From: Clostridia bacterium DTU025
GTDB taxonomy: Bacteria > Bacillota > DTU025
NCBI GenBank assembly: GCA_001513145.1
Contig: LFSP01000023.1
Location: 1 to 55,495, forward strand
Length of the DNA stretch: 55,495 nucleotides
Reading direction: 5' to 3'
Each line of letters begins with the position of its first letter. The first letter of the stretch is position 1. The notes beneath the pieces are model-generated. The model searched no databases. It had not been told where the DNA came from and saw only the letters and a list, made by a program, of their open reading frames with translations. Positions 47,731 through 55,495 of this stretch are shown here, piece after piece. A program made the translations under genes and the position numbers.

Positions 47731-48867
47731 CTATCTAGACGGACCCCAATCCGGAAGAACGGAGTCGCCCCTGCCGGTTATCCTGTGAACGCCTCCCAGG
47801 AGCTCCACGATGTGCACGGCGTACGCTCCGCCGCCCGCCACCCTGGCAGACAAGGCCACAGCGTCGGATGAGTGGCTCCAGCTGAGCCCGGCGTAGCGCG
47901 GGTCGCTCACCAGCGTTACTGAGTCCACAGGACGTATCTCAGGGCCTGCCGCATCCACCTGGTAGAAGGTGACCGTCACAGCGCTCTCCATGCCCATCTG
48001 TGTCCCTGACTGAGCCGCCAGCATCGTGCAGTCAGGCGACCACTTGATGGACCACGGCCACAGGTCGGAGCCTACATCCACGCCTGCCCGGTCGCCGGTG
48101 AACCAGTCATGCACCTCAAGTCTAAGCTGGCCGTTTACTGTGGCCACGCACGCGTAAACGCTACCCATCGTGGCCCCGTGAACCGCCCACACCTGATCTT
48201 GCGGGCGCAACACCGCTTCCAGCTGGACGCTGGTGCCGTCCCCAAGGTCCACCAACACCGCCCGGCCGTCGCGTATCACGGCTATGGATCGGCCGCGTCC
48301 CATCCAGCTGGGACAGGCCCCCTCGATCCTGGCCACAAGCTCTCCTGAGGCCGACAGCACCTCCGTGACGCCGTCAGAGTCCCACGCCAGGAGTTCGCCT
48401 GTGGGAGACCACTTCGGCGACACGAAGCCAGAAGGAGAGCGCCCGATGGGAACCGGGCTCCCACCGTCAGTGCTCAGCACCGCCACTCGGCCGTCAGGGC
48501 CCTGGTAAGCCACGCGGTCCCCGTCCGGAGAGAGCACCGGCACTGAGCTCCAGGCGCATGCCCCTGCCTCGAGGACACGCACCTCTCCGGAGCATACATC
48601 GATGGCAACCAGGCAGGGGCCGGCTTGTCTGTTGGACACCGCTACGACGGTGCCCCGATGCCTGTGGGGAGACGGCACCGCCACAGCCTGCCCCGTCTGC
48701 AGGCTGTCACGCCTGCCTACCCCGGGGTTCAGTTCCTCAAGTAACCCCACGGGAACGCCGCGCGCGCCCGCTATCCTCAGAAGATCCTCGCCGGCCTCGG
48801 CCACGTACACGCCTTCCTGCCCTCGAGAGTAGCCCGTCATGAACATCACCCGCTTCGCAAGCTGCAC
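47731..48867 (-). CDS. LysM-like plus TolB/WD40-like beta-propeller protein
   Basis: A 378-residue protein of unclear function. Residues about 17-65 resemble a LysM module (GVYVAEAGEDLLRIAGARGV, then LEELNPGVGRRDSLQTGQAVAVP). The rest has repeated beta strands of TolB/PD40 type: VPVLSPDGDRVAYQGPDGRVAVL, SPKWSPTGELLAWDSDG, SIKWSPDCTMLAAQSG, LSWSHSSDAVALSAR. No signal peptide is obvious. Starts at GTG 48867, ATG 48846 or ATG 48840 are all possible; none has a good ribosome binding site. It is convergent with fmdB and downstream of the opp terminator. Confidence 0.65.
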   Translation of the reverse strand: MQLAKRVMFMTGYSRGQEGVYVAEAGEDLLRIAGARGVPVGLLEELNPGVGRRDSLQTGQAVAVPSPHRHRGTVVAVSNRQAGPCLVAIDVCSGEVRVLEAGACAWSSVPVLSPDGDRVAYQGPDGRVAVLSTDGGSPVPIGRSPSGFVSPKWSPTGELLAWDSDGVTEVLSASGELVARIEGACPSWMGRGRSIAVIRDGRAVLVDLGDGTSVQLEAVLRPQDQVWAVHGATMGSVYACVATVNGQLRLEVHDWFTGDRAGVDVGSDLWPWSIKWSPDCTMLAAQSGTQMGMESAVTVTFYQVDAAGPEIRPVDSVTLVSDPRYAGLSWSHSSDAVALSARVAGGGAYAVHIVELLGGVHRITGRGDSVLPDWGPSR

Positions 48868-48973: not shown

Positions 48974-50014
48974 TCAGCTCTTCCCGAACTGCCCCACCAG
49001 GTGGCACGCAGCCTGGTGCGTGCCCTCGAAGGTGCGGAACTCGGGCTCTTCGGCCTTGCAGCGGTCAATGGCGTACGGACACCTGGGATGCAGCCTGCAT
49101 CCAGACGGAGGGTTCACCGGGCTCGGTATCTCGCCCTTCAGGATGTCCGCAAAACCCCGGTGCCTGGGATCGGGCACGAACACGGCGCCGATCAACGCCT
49201 GGGTGTAGGGATGCAGCGGGTTGCCGATGACCTCATCGGCAGTGCCCAGCTCCACCATCTTACCCAGGTACATCACGGCGATCCTGTCGCATACGTGCCT
49301 GGCTGTGGCCAAGTCGTGGGTGATGTAGATGAAGGTGACGCCCCTCGACCTTGACAGCTCCAGCATGAGGTTGAGGACCTCTCCCCTGATGGACACGTCC
49401 AGCATGGACACTGGCTCGTCCGCCACGATGAAATCGGGATCCACCGAGAGCGCCCGGGCCACGGCGACGCGCTGACGCTGGCCGCCTGACAGCTCGTGCG
49501 GGTACCTGGTCATGTACTCCTCGGGAGGCAGCATCTCCACGTCAGCCAGCACCCTTGCCACGATGTCACGAGCCTCGTGAACGCTGCGCACGATCCCCTG
49601 TATCCTCAGGGGCTCGGAGATTATCGTCTGCACGTCCATCCGAGGGTTCATGGACTCGTAAGGATCCTGGAAGATCACCTGCATCTTCTTACGGAGCTTC
49701 TTCATCTCAGGCGGAGACAGGCTCATGATGTCGGTTCCCTCAAGGATGGCACTGCCGCTGGTGGCGTCGGTGAGCCTCAGGATGGTCCTGGCCAGCGTGG
49801 TCTTGCCGCAGCCGGACTCGCCAACAACCCCGAAGATCTCTCCCTTGTAGACGTCAAAGGAGACGTTGTCCACCGCCTTGAGCACCGGCGGCACCTTGGT
49901 GCGCAGAGCCTGGATGAGCCCCAGGCGCACCGGGAAGTGCTTCACCAGGTTCCTGACCTGCAGTATCACGTCGCCCTTCTTGAGCTCTGTATGCGCCGCC
50001 GTCATCGCTGCCAT
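48974..50014 (-). CDS. oppF: Oligopeptide ABC transporter ATP-binding protein OppF-like
   Basis: The 346-residue second ATPase of the peptide importer. Walker A GESGCGKTTLARTIL, Q-loop VIFQDPYESMNPRM, signature PHELSGGQRQRVAVARAL, Walker B PDFIVADEPVSMLDVS and switch His in YITHDLATA. The C-terminal oligopeptide-transporter extension has GCRLHPRCPYAIDRC, a cysteine motif that binds Fe-S in some members. It overlaps oppD by 13 bp and ends the operon. Confidence 0.95.
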   Translation of the reverse strand: MAAMTAAHTELKKGDVILQVRNLVKHFPVRLGLIQALRTKVPPVLKAVDNVSFDVYKGEIFGVVGESGCGKTTLARTILRLTDATSGSAILEGTDIMSLSPPEMKKLRKKMQVIFQDPYESMNPRMDVQTIISEPLRIQGIVRSVHEARDIVARVLADVEMLPPEEYMTRYPHELSGGQRQRVAVARALSVDPDFIVADEPVSMLDVSIRGEVLNLMLELSRSRGVTFIYITHDLATARHVCDRIAVMYLGKMVELGTADEVIGNPLHPYTQALIGAVFVPDPRHRGFADILKGEIPSPVNPPSGCRLHPRCPYAIDRCKAEEPEFRTFEGTHQAACHLVGQFGKS

Positions 50015-50994
50015 ACGTCTCCCCCCTGCTGCACGATCTCAGCCTTGTGGCAGGCCACCATGTGCTTGTTGCCGCCGATCTCTCTCACCGGAGGCTCCAC
50101 CTGCCTGCACTCGTCGTCGGCCAACGGACATCTAGGGTGGAACCTGCAGCCTGGCGGAGGCGCCAAGAGGTTTGGCGGGAACCCAGGCAGGCTCCTCACG
50201 GTGGTACGTTCAGCCTTGATGTTGGGGAAGGAACGCACCAGCCCCATGGCGTACGGGTGCGCCGGATTGACGTATACATCCATCACGGAGCCGTACTCCA
50301 CTACCTTGCCTGCATACATGATCACCACGGAATCGCAGGTCTGTGCGATGACCGACAGGTCGTGGGTGATCAGCATCATCGATAGGTTCAGCCGCTGCCT
50401 GAGCTCGGTGATGGCCTTAAGGATCTGGGCCTGAACCATCACGTCCAGCGCGGTGGTGGGCTCATCGGCGATGATCAGGTCCGGATGGCATGCCAGGGCC
50501 ATCGCGATCACCGCGCGCTGCTTCATGCCGCCGCTGAACTCGTGTGGGTACTCGCTGAACCTCTTGGGGTTTATCCCAACCAGCGCAAAGAGATCGTGGG
50601 TGCGCTTGATAGCCTCCTCCCTGGAGACGTCCTCGTGGTGGAGGATGGCCTCAACTATCTGCTCGCCCACACGGTGGACGGGGTTGAGGGCGTTCATCGC
50701 GCCCTGGAATATCATGGAGATACGTTTCCATCGTATGTCCTTCCTGAACTGCTCCTCCGCCATGGTGAGCAGCTCCTTGCCGTCCATCACCACACTGCCA
50801 CCATGATACTCGCCGTTGGAGGGCAGCAGGCGCAGTAAGGCCGAAGCCATGCTGGTCTTGCCGCAACCGGACTCACCGGCTATCCCCAGGGCCTTGCCTT
50901 TCTCGATCTCGAAGCTCACGGAGTCGACGGCACGAACATGGCCCCTGGCGGTGCGGTAGTACATCTTGAGGTCTCTAACTTCTAACAGGGCCAT
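50002..50994 (-). CDS. oppD: Oligopeptide ABC transporter ATP-binding protein OppD-like
   Basis: The 330-residue first ATPase of the importer. Walker A GESGCGKTSMASALL, Q-loop MIFQGAMNALNPVHRV, signature PHEFSGGMKQRAVIAMAL, Walker B PDLIIADEPTTALDVM, and the C-terminal cysteine motif GCRFHPRCPLADDEC. The ATG at 50994 follows the oppC stop by a single base. With OppF it forms the heterodimeric motor. Confidence 0.95.
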   Translation of the reverse strand: MALLEVRDLKMYYRTARGHVRAVDSVSFEIEKGKALGIAGESGCGKTSMASALLRLLPSNGEYHGGSVVMDGKELLTMAEEQFRKDIRWKRISMIFQGAMNALNPVHRVGEQIVEAILHHEDVSREEAIKRTHDLFALVGINPKRFSEYPHEFSGGMKQRAVIAMALACHPDLIIADEPTTALDVMVQAQILKAITELRQRLNLSMMLITHDLSVIAQTCDSVVIMYAGKVVEYGSVMDVYVNPAHPYAMGLVRSFPNIKAERTTVRSLPGFPPNLLAPPPGCRFHPRCPLADDECRQVEPPVREIGGNKHMVACHKAEIVQQGGDVWQR

Positions 50995-50995
50995 G

Positions 50996-52561
50996 TCACG
51001 ATCTCTCCCTATACCGTGGATTGAGGATCTCGTTCACGGAGTTTCCGATGAACACGAACGCCACAGCAAGTCCTGTAAGGACTATGCCCGGAGGCAGCAT
51101 CCACCACCACGCCATCTTGGTGAACGCGCCGAACTGTCGAGCGTTCTGCAGCATCCTGCCCCATGTGGGGACCCTTGGATCGCCCAGGCCCAGGAAGCTC
51201 AGCGAGGCCTCCGTCAGGATGGCGCTGGGTATCCTGAGCACCAGGTTGGCGAAGATCAGGGGCATCGTGTTAGGCAGGATGTGCGATATCATGATGTACG
51301 CGCTGGAAGCTCCTGCAGCCTTCGCAGCTTCCACGAAGGTGCGCTCCTTCAGCGAGAGGGTCTGCGCACGCACCATCCTGGCGATGCCCATCCAAGAGAA
51401 CAGGGCCAGCAGGATCACCACGTTGGCCACGCTCTTTCCGAACAGTGCGCCCAACACTATCAGGACGGGCATGACGGGTACCGCCAGCAGCACATCGACG
51501 ACCCTCATCAGGACCTCGTCGACCACACCACCCAGGTAGCCGGCGATCAAGCCCACGGATGTTCCGATGAACACCGCAATGAACGCGGCCGACAGGCCTA
51601 TGGCCAGCGCCACCCGGGTGCCGTACACCAGCTGCGCCCAGAGGTCAGACCCCATGTGGTCGGTGCCGAGGATGCCATGGACCATACCAAGCACTCCGAA
51701 GTCCACGGGGCGAATCCTGACCTGCACTGGCCCGCTGGGCGATTCGCTGTCCACCCTGAGCCTCACCGTGTAGTTTCCGCGCTCCGCGAAAACCACTGCG
51801 GTGGGCTCATCAAAGAAGGACAGGCCCAGACGCATCTTGAGGTCGTAGTCCCTGGCGTCGATTATCGCCGACCCCGTCCGGAGGCTTCCTCTCACCGTGG
51901 TGTTCCACAGGTTGAAGGTCTTGCCGCTGGGATTCACCAGCTCGAAGGCGAGCTTGGTGGAGGCATCGCCAGGAGCCTCCACGGAGTATTCGAACCCTGC
52001 GGAGAAGGTCTGGGGTCTGCCGTAATCGTAAGCGAAGCTGAACTCGAACAGGGCATCGCTGTCTTCAGGTTCAGCCTGCTGAGCGGATGCGGACGTTCCG
52101 AACGGGTTCCAGGCGAAGCTGCTCACGAACCCGAAGGGCGTACCGGACTGCTGGGTCTCTCCCTCCGCAGGCTCCGTTGCAGGCAGCTGTATATCCAAGC
52201 CCTCTCCTCGCTGATGCTGCCAGGGGCCTACCTTGACGCCTTCTGCCGTCTCCGCATCCCAGTCAGACAGCCCGAGAACCCACCGCATGGTGGGAGGCAG
52301 ATCTCGGTACTTCGGGTTGATCTTCCCGAGCCAGGCAGGCGCGGCTATGTTGTCGGCCAGGTACAGGTCGTCCATGGGATCGTACTTCGTCAGCAACGGC
52401 GCGAACACCGCTACGAGAACGTACACGGCCACGATGGCGAGGCCAACCATCCCCTGGGGCTTGCGCCGGTACTGCTCCCAGAAGGTTAGGGGGCGCGGTG
52501 CTGCAACGGCTGCCGCCTTGGCTACTTCGGCTTTCTGCGCTGCTCTCTCGTTGTTCCTCAT
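50996..52561 (-). CDS. oppC: Peptide ABC transporter permease OppC-like with a large extracytoplasmic insertion
   Basis: A 521-residue permease, where family members are normally about 280-320. The first helix (about 38-56) is standard. The usual LGTDxxGxDxxxxxxYGxR motif (LGTDHMGSDLWAQLVYGTR) does not appear until residue 298. The roughly 240 residues between are beta-rich and soluble-looking (FSAGFEYSVEAPGDASTKLA, GNYTVRLRVDSESPSGPVQ) and should lie outside the membrane. The remaining five helices and the EAA loop (FVEAAKAAGASSAYIMISHILPN, within 405-435) are normal. The ATG at 52561 overlaps the oppB stop (ATGA). The insertion may bind the substrate-binding protein or cell wall. Confidence 0.9.
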   Translation of the reverse strand: MRNNERAAQKAEVAKAAAVAAPRPLTFWEQYRRKPQGMVGLAIVAVYVLVAVFAPLLTKYDPMDDLYLADNIAAPAWLGKINPKYRDLPPTMRWVLGLSDWDAETAEGVKVGPWQHQRGEGLDIQLPATEPAEGETQQSGTPFGFVSSFAWNPFGTSASAQQAEPEDSDALFEFSFAYDYGRPQTFSAGFEYSVEAPGDASTKLAFELVNPSGKTFNLWNTTVRGSLRTGSAIIDARDYDLKMRLGLSFFDEPTAVVFAERGNYTVRLRVDSESPSGPVQVRIRPVDFGVLGMVHGILGTDHMGSDLWAQLVYGTRVALAIGLSAAFIAVFIGTSVGLIAGYLGGVVDEVLMRVVDVLLAVPVMPVLIVLGALFGKSVANVVILLALFSWMGIARMVRAQTLSLKERTFVEAAKAAGASSAYIMISHILPNTMPLIFANLVLRIPSAILTEASLSFLGLGDPRVPTWGRMLQNARQFGAFTKMAWWWMLPPGIVLTGLAVAFVFIGNSVNEILNPRYRERS

Positions 52562-53541
52562 TTGCCTGCACCTGCCCCGACGCGGATCCTGGGGTCAACC
52601 AGACCATAAGCTATGTCCGCCATGAGATTGGAGATGATCACTGCCAGTGCTATCAGGTAGAAAGCACCCTGGGCAGCCGGGTAGTCCATCTGAAGCGTGG
52701 CATCCAGCAGGTACCGGCCCACCCCATGCCACGAGAATATGCTCTCTGTGATCACCGCGCCGGACACGGCTCCAGGTAACGACATGAAGATGAGCGTCAC
52801 GATGGGTGGCAGCACGCTCCTGAGGGCGTGGTGATAGAGCACCTCCGACCTGGGAAGGCCCTTAGCTCGAGCGGTGACGATGTAATCCTGCCCCAAGGCT
52901 TCCAGCATCGTGTTGCGCGTGTATAGAGCCCAGGAACCGAAGCCGATCAGTATGTTGGAACCGGCGGGCAGGATCAGGTGCCACAGCCGGTCGAGGAATC
53001 GCGCCCAGCTCCCGTCAGGCGGCGGGGCGCTCATCGTCCCGTGGATCGGCATTATGGGCCAGTAGTAGCCGAAGGCCAGGAGCAGCAGCAGCTGAATGAA
53101 AAACGTTGGGACGGCGTAGGCAAAGAGCCCTGCGCCCACCACAAACTTCTCCGTGAACCGCCCGCGATTGGCGGCAGAAGCCACTCCCAGCGAGATTCCC
53201 AAAGCAGCTTGGCCCACGAAGGCGACGCTGAAGAGTACTATGGTGTTGGGCAGCCTCTCGCGCAGCTCAGACCAGACCAGCCGGCGAGTGCTGAACGACA
53301 GACCCAAGTCGAACTTGACCAGTGACTTGAGATAGTTGAGGTACTGCGTCAGCGGCGGTTGGTCCAATCCGAACTGCCGGCGCAGTTCCATCTTAGCTTG
53401 CGGCGTGAAGTTGGGATCCAGGATCATCTTCTCGGGATCGCCAGGCATCACGCGAAAAAGGATGTAGTTGAACGTCAGGATGACCCAGAGCACGATCACA
53501 GTGTAAATTAGACGCCTGATCAGATAGGAGCGGAAACCCAA
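52558..53541 (-). CDS. oppB: Peptide ABC transporter permease OppB-like
   Basis: A 327-residue permease with six membrane helices. It has YLIRRLIYTVIVLWVILTFN at the start, RVMPGDPEKMI, LGLSFSTRRLVWSELRERLP, and the EAA loop YIVTARAKGLPRSEVLYHHALRS (within 215-245), followed by VITESIFSWHGVGRYLLDA. Length and motifs are normal, in contrast to its partner OppC. Separated from the binding-protein gene by a gap with a strong hairpin. Confidence 0.95.
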   Translation of the reverse strand: MGFRSYLIRRLIYTVIVLWVILTFNYILFRVMPGDPEKMILDPNFTPQAKMELRRQFGLDQPPLTQYLNYLKSLVKFDLGLSFSTRRLVWSELRERLPNTIVLFSVAFVGQAALGISLGVASAANRGRFTEKFVVGAGLFAYAVPTFFIQLLLLLAFGYYWPIMPIHGTMSAPPPDGSWARFLDRLWHLILPAGSNILIGFGSWALYTRNTMLEALGQDYIVTARAKGLPRSEVLYHHALRSVLPPIVTLIFMSLPGAVSGAVITESIFSWHGVGRYLLDATLQMDYPAAQGAFYLIALAVIISNLMADIAYGLVDPRIRVGAGAGK

Positions 53542-53629: not shown

Positions 53630-55345
53630 CTACAGCTCAGTTGGGTTCAGGCGCCAGTAGTTCGGGTTCTTCACGAGCCTGACGTACTCGCCGGGCACGT
53701 AATCCTTCAGGATGAAGGGACCGGTTCCAACTACCTGGTTGTAGCCCTTGATCGTCGGATGAGGCTCGTTCCAGGGTTCGAAGGTCCGGTAGTCTTCTAC
53801 CTTCTCCCAGATGTGCTTGGCCAGGAACGCCAGGCCAGCGTTGTAGATGTGCCAGTAGCTGACGTTGTCGAAGTACACCTTCACGGTGTACTGGTCTACC
53901 AGCTCCACTTTGACGATGTGCTCGGTGTTGGGCAGGTAGCGAGGCACCTGGTTGTTCTTCAGGAACTCGATGGTGAACTTGACGTCCTCGCCGCTGAACG
54001 GCATTCCGTCAGACCACTTCACTCCCTTACGGATGTACCAGGTGATCACGGTGCCCTGTTTGCCGGGCTCCACTTCCCAAACGCCCACATCCCACTTCTC
54101 AGCGAGCCATGGCATGTCCTCGAGCGTCTCGGGGTGGCTGATGATCAGGCCATCAGCGGTCTTGTTAAGAACCTCCCACTCGTAGGCGCTGGAAGCCACC
54201 GCGTAGTTGAGGTTCTTCGGCTCCTCGCTGAGGGCCCAGCGAATGGTGCCGCCCTCGATGGGCCTGCCGTTCCGGTCGACCCTGCGTATGTTCAGGAGGG
54301 TCCACGGGTTGTTGTAGCTGGCAGCACCGAAACCAGCCATGTCAACGTAGCCGGTCACCAGCGTCTTGTTGAACGCGTCGATATACGGCCTGGAATACAG
54401 CGGGATGTACGGCATCTCGCGGGCCAGGATGAGCTGGGCCGCATCAGCCGCCTCCTTGGCGGTGGCGAGGTCCGGAGCCGAATCGAGCAGGTCGAGGATC
54501 CTGTCGAGCTCGGGGTTGCGGATGCCCGGGTTGTTGTACCCAGCCTCGACGTCATTCCTGGAGTGGAAGAAGCTCACCAGGTGGGTCGGGTTCTTGCTCA
54601 GCGACCATGCCAGGCAGTACATGTCGAAGTCATGGTAATCGATCTTGTCCAGCATGGTGTTGAAGTCGGTGGGCTCATGAACCAGCGGGATTCCTACCTT
54701 CCTCGCGGACTCGGAGATGATCTTGCCGATCTCCGCGGAGGTGGCCGCAACCTCGTAGGTAGGCGTCATCAGCTTGATGTCAGGCAGCGGCTTGCCGGTG
54801 TTGGGGTCAATCCTCGTGCCGGTGGCCGGATCAAGCTTGTAGCCTGCGGCATCCAGGACTTCCGCCGCCTTCTCAAGGCTGTACTCATAGGTAGGCACGT
54901 CCGGATTGAAGAACGGAGAAACCTGAGGCACGAAGCTGCTCATGGGCATCATGTAGCCCTTGAACAGGGTGCGGATGATGTTGTCGCGGTCAACAGTGTG
55001 CGCGATGGCCTGGCGGAGCACCTGGCTGTCCAGGGGTGCCTTCCTCATGTTGAAGCACGTGTAGAACATGTGGAAGCCCAGAGTCCATCTCATGTCCGCG
55101 TACGGAAGGGTTCTGGCGTGGTCGATGTCGGCAGGCTGGGTCAGGCCTGACCAGACGATGCTCTCGCCACGCTCAAACGCGATACGACGAGCCTGCTGTT
55201 CCCTGATGATCGGCATGATGATCTCGTCCACGTGAGGGCCCCAGGCCTCGAACTGCACCTGGGCTGCTGCGGGCACGCCCATGAAGCCGATGGCCATCGC
55301 CACCGCCAGGACGAGGCCCAGCATCAAACGAACCTTCCTTGGCAT
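53630..55345 (-). CDS. oppA: Peptide-binding protein of SBP_bac_5 family, circularly permuted
   Basis: A 571-residue exported binding protein with its halves swapped. After a Sec signal peptide without a lipobox (about 1-28), it begins HVDEIIMPIIREQQARRIAF and LDSQVLRQAIAHTVDRDNII, segments that in DppA/OppA lie in the C-terminal half. At about residue 365 the canonical N-terminus appears (GGTIRWALSEEPKNLN), then IRKGVKWSDGMPFSGEDVKF, and the protein ends at VGTGPFILKDYVPGEYVRL and NPNYW plus seven residues. The canonical order is the reverse. The frame is uninterrupted. The ATG at 55345 has AAGGAGG 10 bases upstream. The frame stays open to the window edge, but that part is not protein-like. 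First gene of the opp operon. Confidence 0.9.
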   Translation of the reverse strand: MPRKVRLMLGLVLAVAMAIGFMGVPAAAQVQFEAWGPHVDEIIMPIIREQQARRIAFERGESIVWSGLTQPADIDHARTLPYADMRWTLGFHMFYTCFNMRKAPLDSQVLRQAIAHTVDRDNIIRTLFKGYMMPMSSFVPQVSPFFNPDVPTYEYSLEKAAEVLDAAGYKLDPATGTRIDPNTGKPLPDIKLMTPTYEVAATSAEIGKIISESARKVGIPLVHEPTDFNTMLDKIDYHDFDMYCLAWSLSKNPTHLVSFFHSRNDVEAGYNNPGIRNPELDRILDLLDSAPDLATAKEAADAAQLILAREMPYIPLYSRPYIDAFNKTLVTGYVDMAGFGAASYNNPWTLLNIRRVDRNGRPIEGGTIRWALSEEPKNLNYAVASSAYEWEVLNKTADGLIISHPETLEDMPWLAEKWDVGVWEVEPGKQGTVITWYIRKGVKWSDGMPFSGEDVKFTIEFLKNNQVPRYLPNTEHIVKVELVDQYTVKVYFDNVSYWHIYNAGLAFLAKHIWEKVEDYRTFEPWNEPHPTIKGYNQVVGTGPFILKDYVPGEYVRLVKNPNYWRLNPTEL

Positions 55346-55495
55346 AAAACGTCTACCTCCTTCTTCTCGGCATACTTGACTTCTGACACGCCTCGGCACG
55401 AATCGGATCGCCGCCAAACGGATCCAACCAGGCAAGCAACTCCCGTTTCGTGGAGCTGGCCAGCCCAAGCCCTGCACTGGTTGCACATTTAGCTC

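Follow-up and report, generated by a model that had tools for sequence, protein, structure and literature searches.

Introduction

Family-5 substrate-binding proteins (SBPs) rank with the most common prokaryotic transport proteins, and their annotation, alignment and classification presume one order of sequence blocks. The described members of this SBP_bac_5 or Cluster C group (DppA, OppA, AppA and NikA) have both blocks and the OppB, OppC, OppD and OppF partners in common with the proteins reported here, which we call type A; however, the block order of type A is swapped relative to theirs. The Opp, Dpp and Nik importers (Opp4B/Opp4C/OppD/OppF-like) also share the subunit set, the gene order and the permease and ATPase families with the importer described here, which differs from them by a 521-aa OppC carrying an ectodomain without a Pfam family.

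A naturally permuted ABC SBP has been described in T. pallidum. This protein, TpMglB-2 (Tp0684), was designated 'Type Ic / Cluster Bc' and was shown to bind its ligand, glucose; both treponemes and Gram-positive bacteria have homologues of it (PMC4990184). It belongs to a different SBP class (Cluster B, sugar), hence its permutation is separate from that of type A, and an enlarged permease like the type A OppC is not known to have been reported for it (PMC4990184). In the literature searched (open-access papers only), TpMglB-2 was the only natural SBP permutation and no permuted family-5 (Cluster C) SBP was found.

Results

Order of blocks in the SBP gene

The window, that is, the whole stretch of 55,495 nucleotides that was analysed, covers only part of a contig of 106,385 bases from Clostridia bacterium DTU025. 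On its minus strand, an open reading frame starting with ATG (53630..55345) encodes a 571-aa protein, identified as a type A circularly permuted SBP_bac_5 SBP by profiles and by collinear full-length homologues. Since the contig continues past the window, the gene is complete and internal, and the possibility that it was cut at the window edge was ruled out. The original prediction had held that the two SBP_bac_5 halves are swapped and that the cut lies immediately after NPNYW. PF00496 matched the protein with 228.7 bits (gathering score 32.4) in two stretches of swapped order, model positions 146-353 (window 54584-55237) followed by 4-143 (53651-54112). A profile constructed from 34 canonical SBPs gave the same order, positions 235-520 preceding 45-235, and placed the cut at canonical-profile position ~234, just after NPNYW, so that both points were borne out. 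Pfam recognised only SBP_bac_5, and NCBIfam and PDB searches only family-5 SBPs; no MglB-type homology was found.

The canonical-second block (profile 235-520) came first, at residues ~37-337 (54335..55237, minus strand; Pfam and canonical profile). Profile and alignment placed after it a new junction or linker that connects the former C terminus with the former N terminus (residues ~345-364; 54254..54313, minus strand) and then the canonical-first block (profile 45-235; 53642..54253, minus strand), with the chain ending just past NPNYW. The first block started with GPHVDEI and the last stopped at NPNYW plus a few residues, indicating that the ring was opened at a single point and that ~15-20 linker residues closed it. 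The canonical collinear order of the halves was absent in the window protein and in its type A relatives.

A good ribosome binding site and a signal peptide had also been predicted, and both were recovered. The Shine-Dalgarno sequence AAGGAGG (55356..55362, minus strand) ended 10 nt upstream of the ATG at 55345. The signal peptide spanned about residues 1-27 (55265..55345, minus strand) and was of the AxA type without a lipobox, as judged by the sequence, a lipobox scan and a predicted helix at residues 3-23; its cleavage site is inferred.

The operon

Downstream of the SBP gene, Pfam and NCBIfam assigned four further genes on the minus strand: an OppB-like permease of 327 aa (52558..53541), an enlarged OppC-like permease of 521 aa (50996..52561), an OppD-like ATPase of 330 aa (50002..50994) and an OppF-like ATPase of 346 aa (48974..50014). 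The partners were thus intact, as originally predicted, and an SBP with two permeases and two ATPases met the criterion for an Opp/Dpp-type operon; no component of the operon reached its NCBIfam cut-off. Type A genes elsewhere also led SBP-OppB-OppC-OppD-OppF sets, with the order rearranged in some archaea.

Several neighbouring features were observed. Just past the operon, window 47731-48867 (minus strand) encodes a 378-aa protein without a Pfam match, which by eye resembled LysM or beta-propeller proteins. In three relatives a canonical-order sister SBP operon adjoined the type A operon (L143:1192-7231, L144:5865-12035, L178:14467-19499). In a Thermoprotei archaeon (L046:6670-8940), OppB and OppC were fused in one 757-aa frame, whose OppC part carried the ectodomain.

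Distribution of type A

A search for homologues with the same order, suggested together with the original prediction, found it in many independent assemblies. Full-length collinear homologues shared 59-83% identity with the 571-aa protein in near relatives (60-83% within its family and order), 37-40% in metagenome-assembled genomes of Synergistaceae and 34-35% in a Thermoprotei archaeon; the mean column identity of the type A alignment across phyla was 55%. When an alignment of 18 type A proteins was used as the query, a full-length match was obtained in 22 of the 300 genomes sampled from the own phylum, and the scores dropped from 680 bits to 209 bits, where canonical proteins began. Type A was present in ~107 of 188 genomes of the phylum of a Synergistaceae genome, G302 (counted as genomes with E below 1e-100; a few are fragments), and in 15 of 200 genomes of the phylum of an archaeal genome, G301 (Thermoprotei). 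The new C terminus of the archaeal proteins bore a transmembrane anchor in 15 of 18 rows (13 of the 16 short-form or confidently ordered rows and both others), which indicates that the new terminus is in use. As judged from sequence, the permuted type A form is old and widespread in bacteria and archaea.

The source genome is a draft of 52 contigs, and an assembly artefact or a chimera of two canonical SBP genes could in principle produce such a gene. However, the order, the cut and the operon recurred in independent assemblies across several phyla, and the contig reached far past the gene; the same-order homologues ruled out misassembly, and we consider the artefact explanation to be practically eliminated. 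Contamination behind the archaeal copy was rejected as well, as the L046 contig carries an archaeal marker, which we take to be a geranylgeranylglyceryl phosphate synthase from a reading of its sequence, and type A occurred in further archaeal genomes.

Two type A genes stood in tandem at three loci of one genus (L144:1572-5432, L175:3883-8149, L176:8445-12110), and at L136:7844-8464 (genome G001) a type A fragment, probably a decayed duplicate, lay directly upstream of a full copy. The full-length tandem copies and the decayed one indicate that duplications occur here, and nothing more. The original prediction had proposed that the permutation arose by tandem duplication and trimming; this remains plausible but unproven, since no double-length intermediate was present among the SBP frames of the loci examined.

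A second cut site

The own genome encodes a second permutant with a different cut, a 527-aa protein at G000:C33:40287-41870 (L135:10282-11868). The cut, which we call type B, was at canonical-profile position ~375, past the EAGF/Y helix; the Pfam order was 292-364 followed by 1-282, and the gene was accompanied by its own OppB, OppC and OppD. Seven further proteins from other families of the own phylum had the type B cut. These permutants (L137, L138, L139, L140, L158, L159 and L160) came from four other families, and some had a lipobox; OppC was of ordinary length at these loci where it could be seen.

For SBP trees, canonical order was first restored by rotating the sequences. The short type A proteins formed one clade (100/98, and 100/99 with more archaea). 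The type B protein of the own genome fell outside the clade of the remaining type B proteins, and type B as one clade was rejected (AU p=0.0003), indicating at least two type B origins. Permutation thus took place three times or more, at two sites, with one type B origin in the own genome. In a larger tree, bacterial type A proteins grouped together (97/93) among archaeal lineages that were unresolved from bacterial ones; an archaeal origin of type A followed by transfer would fit this tree, although the root was not inferred.

The long form of type A

A long type A form of 700-950 aa had the same cut as the short form; its additional residues lay within the former N lobe and at the new C-terminal end. 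It was found in ~14 of 300 own-phylum genomes and also in archaea; the profile matches of its N lobe were weak (2-14 bits). Two long proteins (L172:5864-8326 and L173:10858-13404) showed an extra Ig-like-looking tail past NYW, and their old N lobe was interrupted by a large insertion. In the SBP tree the long form was not placed with the short form, which would suggest that the two arose by separate permutations at the same place. However, a single clade was not rejected (AU p=0.08), the OppC proteins of both forms grouped together (98/90) and they had an insert in common. Two separate permutations are therefore considered unlikely.

The OppC ectodomain

The OppC proteins of type A operons contained a beta-rich stretch of 100-245 aa between TM1 and TM2. 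In the window it is 232 aa long (51674..52369, minus strand) and co-occurs with type A SBPs. No Pfam family matched this insert. Its AF2 model (pLDDT 77.9) had a beta-sandwich-like fold, and Foldseek returned only weak matches to CBM, MAM and similar beta-sandwiches (query TM ~0.26-0.43); assigning a function from them was dropped, the matches being too weak.

An HMM of the insert (threshold E up to 0.001; fragments and neighbours from second operons taken out by hand) matched 59 of 62 type A operons versus none of ~55 canonical or type B operons. Two of the three negative operons, L208 and L209, had an enlarged but diverged OppC. The third and sole exception, L277:5289-9310, is an archaeal type A SBP beside an ordinary 315-aa OppC without the insert, which may be explained by early branching, by a loss or by exchange of the permease. 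In the 300 own-phylum genomes, the insert search returned the 22 genomes with short type A and two weak matches, both adjoining long type A genes. In the phylum of G302, type A was present in 95 of 96 insert-bearing genomes, the remaining one having an SBP fragment; 12 type A genomes gave no insert match at E 0.001. In archaea, each OppC that carried the insert and had an SBP in reach was accompanied by a type A-like SBP with the C block first; in L266 and L269 the C block, standing first in the chain, was the only one recognised. Weak archaeal matches had been considered as coming from canonical importers, but this was rejected because their neighbourhoods held type-A-order SBPs wherever an SBP was in reach. 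Matches beside apparently canonical or type B SBPs (L045 and L047) turned out to be type A genes broken off at contig ends.

In a tree of the membrane part of OppC without the insert, 32 of 34 type A permeases grouped together (98/90), and a single type A clade was not rejected (AU p=0.41). Taken together, the trees and gene neighbourhoods show joint inheritance of the permuted SBP and the OppC insert; physical interaction was not demonstrated, and the association may reflect one historical event. The ectodomain could be an accidental passenger unrelated to the permuted SBP, given that the OppC tree indicates one lineage with a single joint inheritance and that the L277 SBP stands beside an insert-free OppC. 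Against this, nearly all type A operons in three phyla have the ectodomain despite an identity of only ~20-35% between distant members, and such retention despite divergence suggests selection. We regard the passenger explanation as a serious possibility, a little short of evenly balanced. That the ectodomain contacts or guides the permuted SBP is an inference that we put forward tentatively.

Structure and function

An AF2 model computed from permuted sequences only was fairly confident, with a pLDDT of 80.6 and a pTM of 0.77. Foldseek aligned ~300 of its columns to AppA, NikA and DppA, as expected of an order-bound aligner, which matches one block at a time. The best solved relative was B. 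subtilis AppA (1xoc) by sequence and AppA, NikA or CcNikZ-II by fold. A PDB sequence search found no solved structure with the permuted order; the PDB matches printed in full consisted of two stretches in swapped order, and none of the best stretches listed crossed the junction. From the alignment limits in this search, the type A cut corresponds to about residue 206 of DppA, a position in domain I. The N and C termini of OppA and DppA are likewise both located in domain I, so that a short linker could feasibly close the chain. The reading as a clean permutation was thus supported by the profile order, the conservation over three phyla, the AF2 model and the trees.

It could still be argued that the protein is a degenerate or non-transport relative (a decoy, a sensor or a pseudogene product) that keeps both halves, and the lack of functional data and of a known ligand leaves room for this. 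However, the open frames, the 55% column identity over phyla, the signal peptide and the conserved position ahead of OppBCDF argue against it, and we consider it very improbable. Although data on expression, binding and structure are lacking, the gene very likely encodes an intact, functional and secreted permuted SBP that feeds an Opp/Dpp-type ABC importer. The own genome also encodes an Omp85 protein, so that an outer membrane is probable and an untethered periplasmic SBP would probably be sufficient.

Discussion

We propose that in type A the old termini were joined through a short linker and that the new N and C termini were created between NPNYW and the VDEI strand, an arrangement deduced from the sequence alone. 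The new termini would lie on the surface of lobe I, and the permuted chain is predicted to fold into the ordinary three-domain shape of DppA and OppA. The SBP would trap an oligopeptide-like ligand between its lobes, then hand it to OppBC, with OppDF supplying the power. An oligopeptide or a similar compound is the probable ligand, as inferred from family knowledge and from AppA being the best PDB sequence match, without binding data. The permutation probably arose through tandem duplication followed by trimming, with no intermediate seen, and was inherited in the type A lineage along with an ectodomain-bearing OppC.

The original prediction was right about the permutation; its age and spread, the second permutant with another cut and the extra domain of OppC had escaped it. 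It is conceivable, though we remain somewhat doubtful, that type A is a distinct importer class, occurring in many Synergistota, in Thermoproteota and in a diderm Bacillota group, in which a permuted Cluster C SBP docks via a dedicated OppC ectodomain and the shift of termini enables this docking as well as the C-terminal anchoring in archaea.

One old permuted lineage and at least two further events at a second site would mean that this fold tolerates repeated natural permutation. Type A is a caution against naive annotation by domain order, and permuted SBPs may serve as natural scaffolds for sensor design. The co-inherited permease ectodomain makes the docking of the SBP on OppBC testable.
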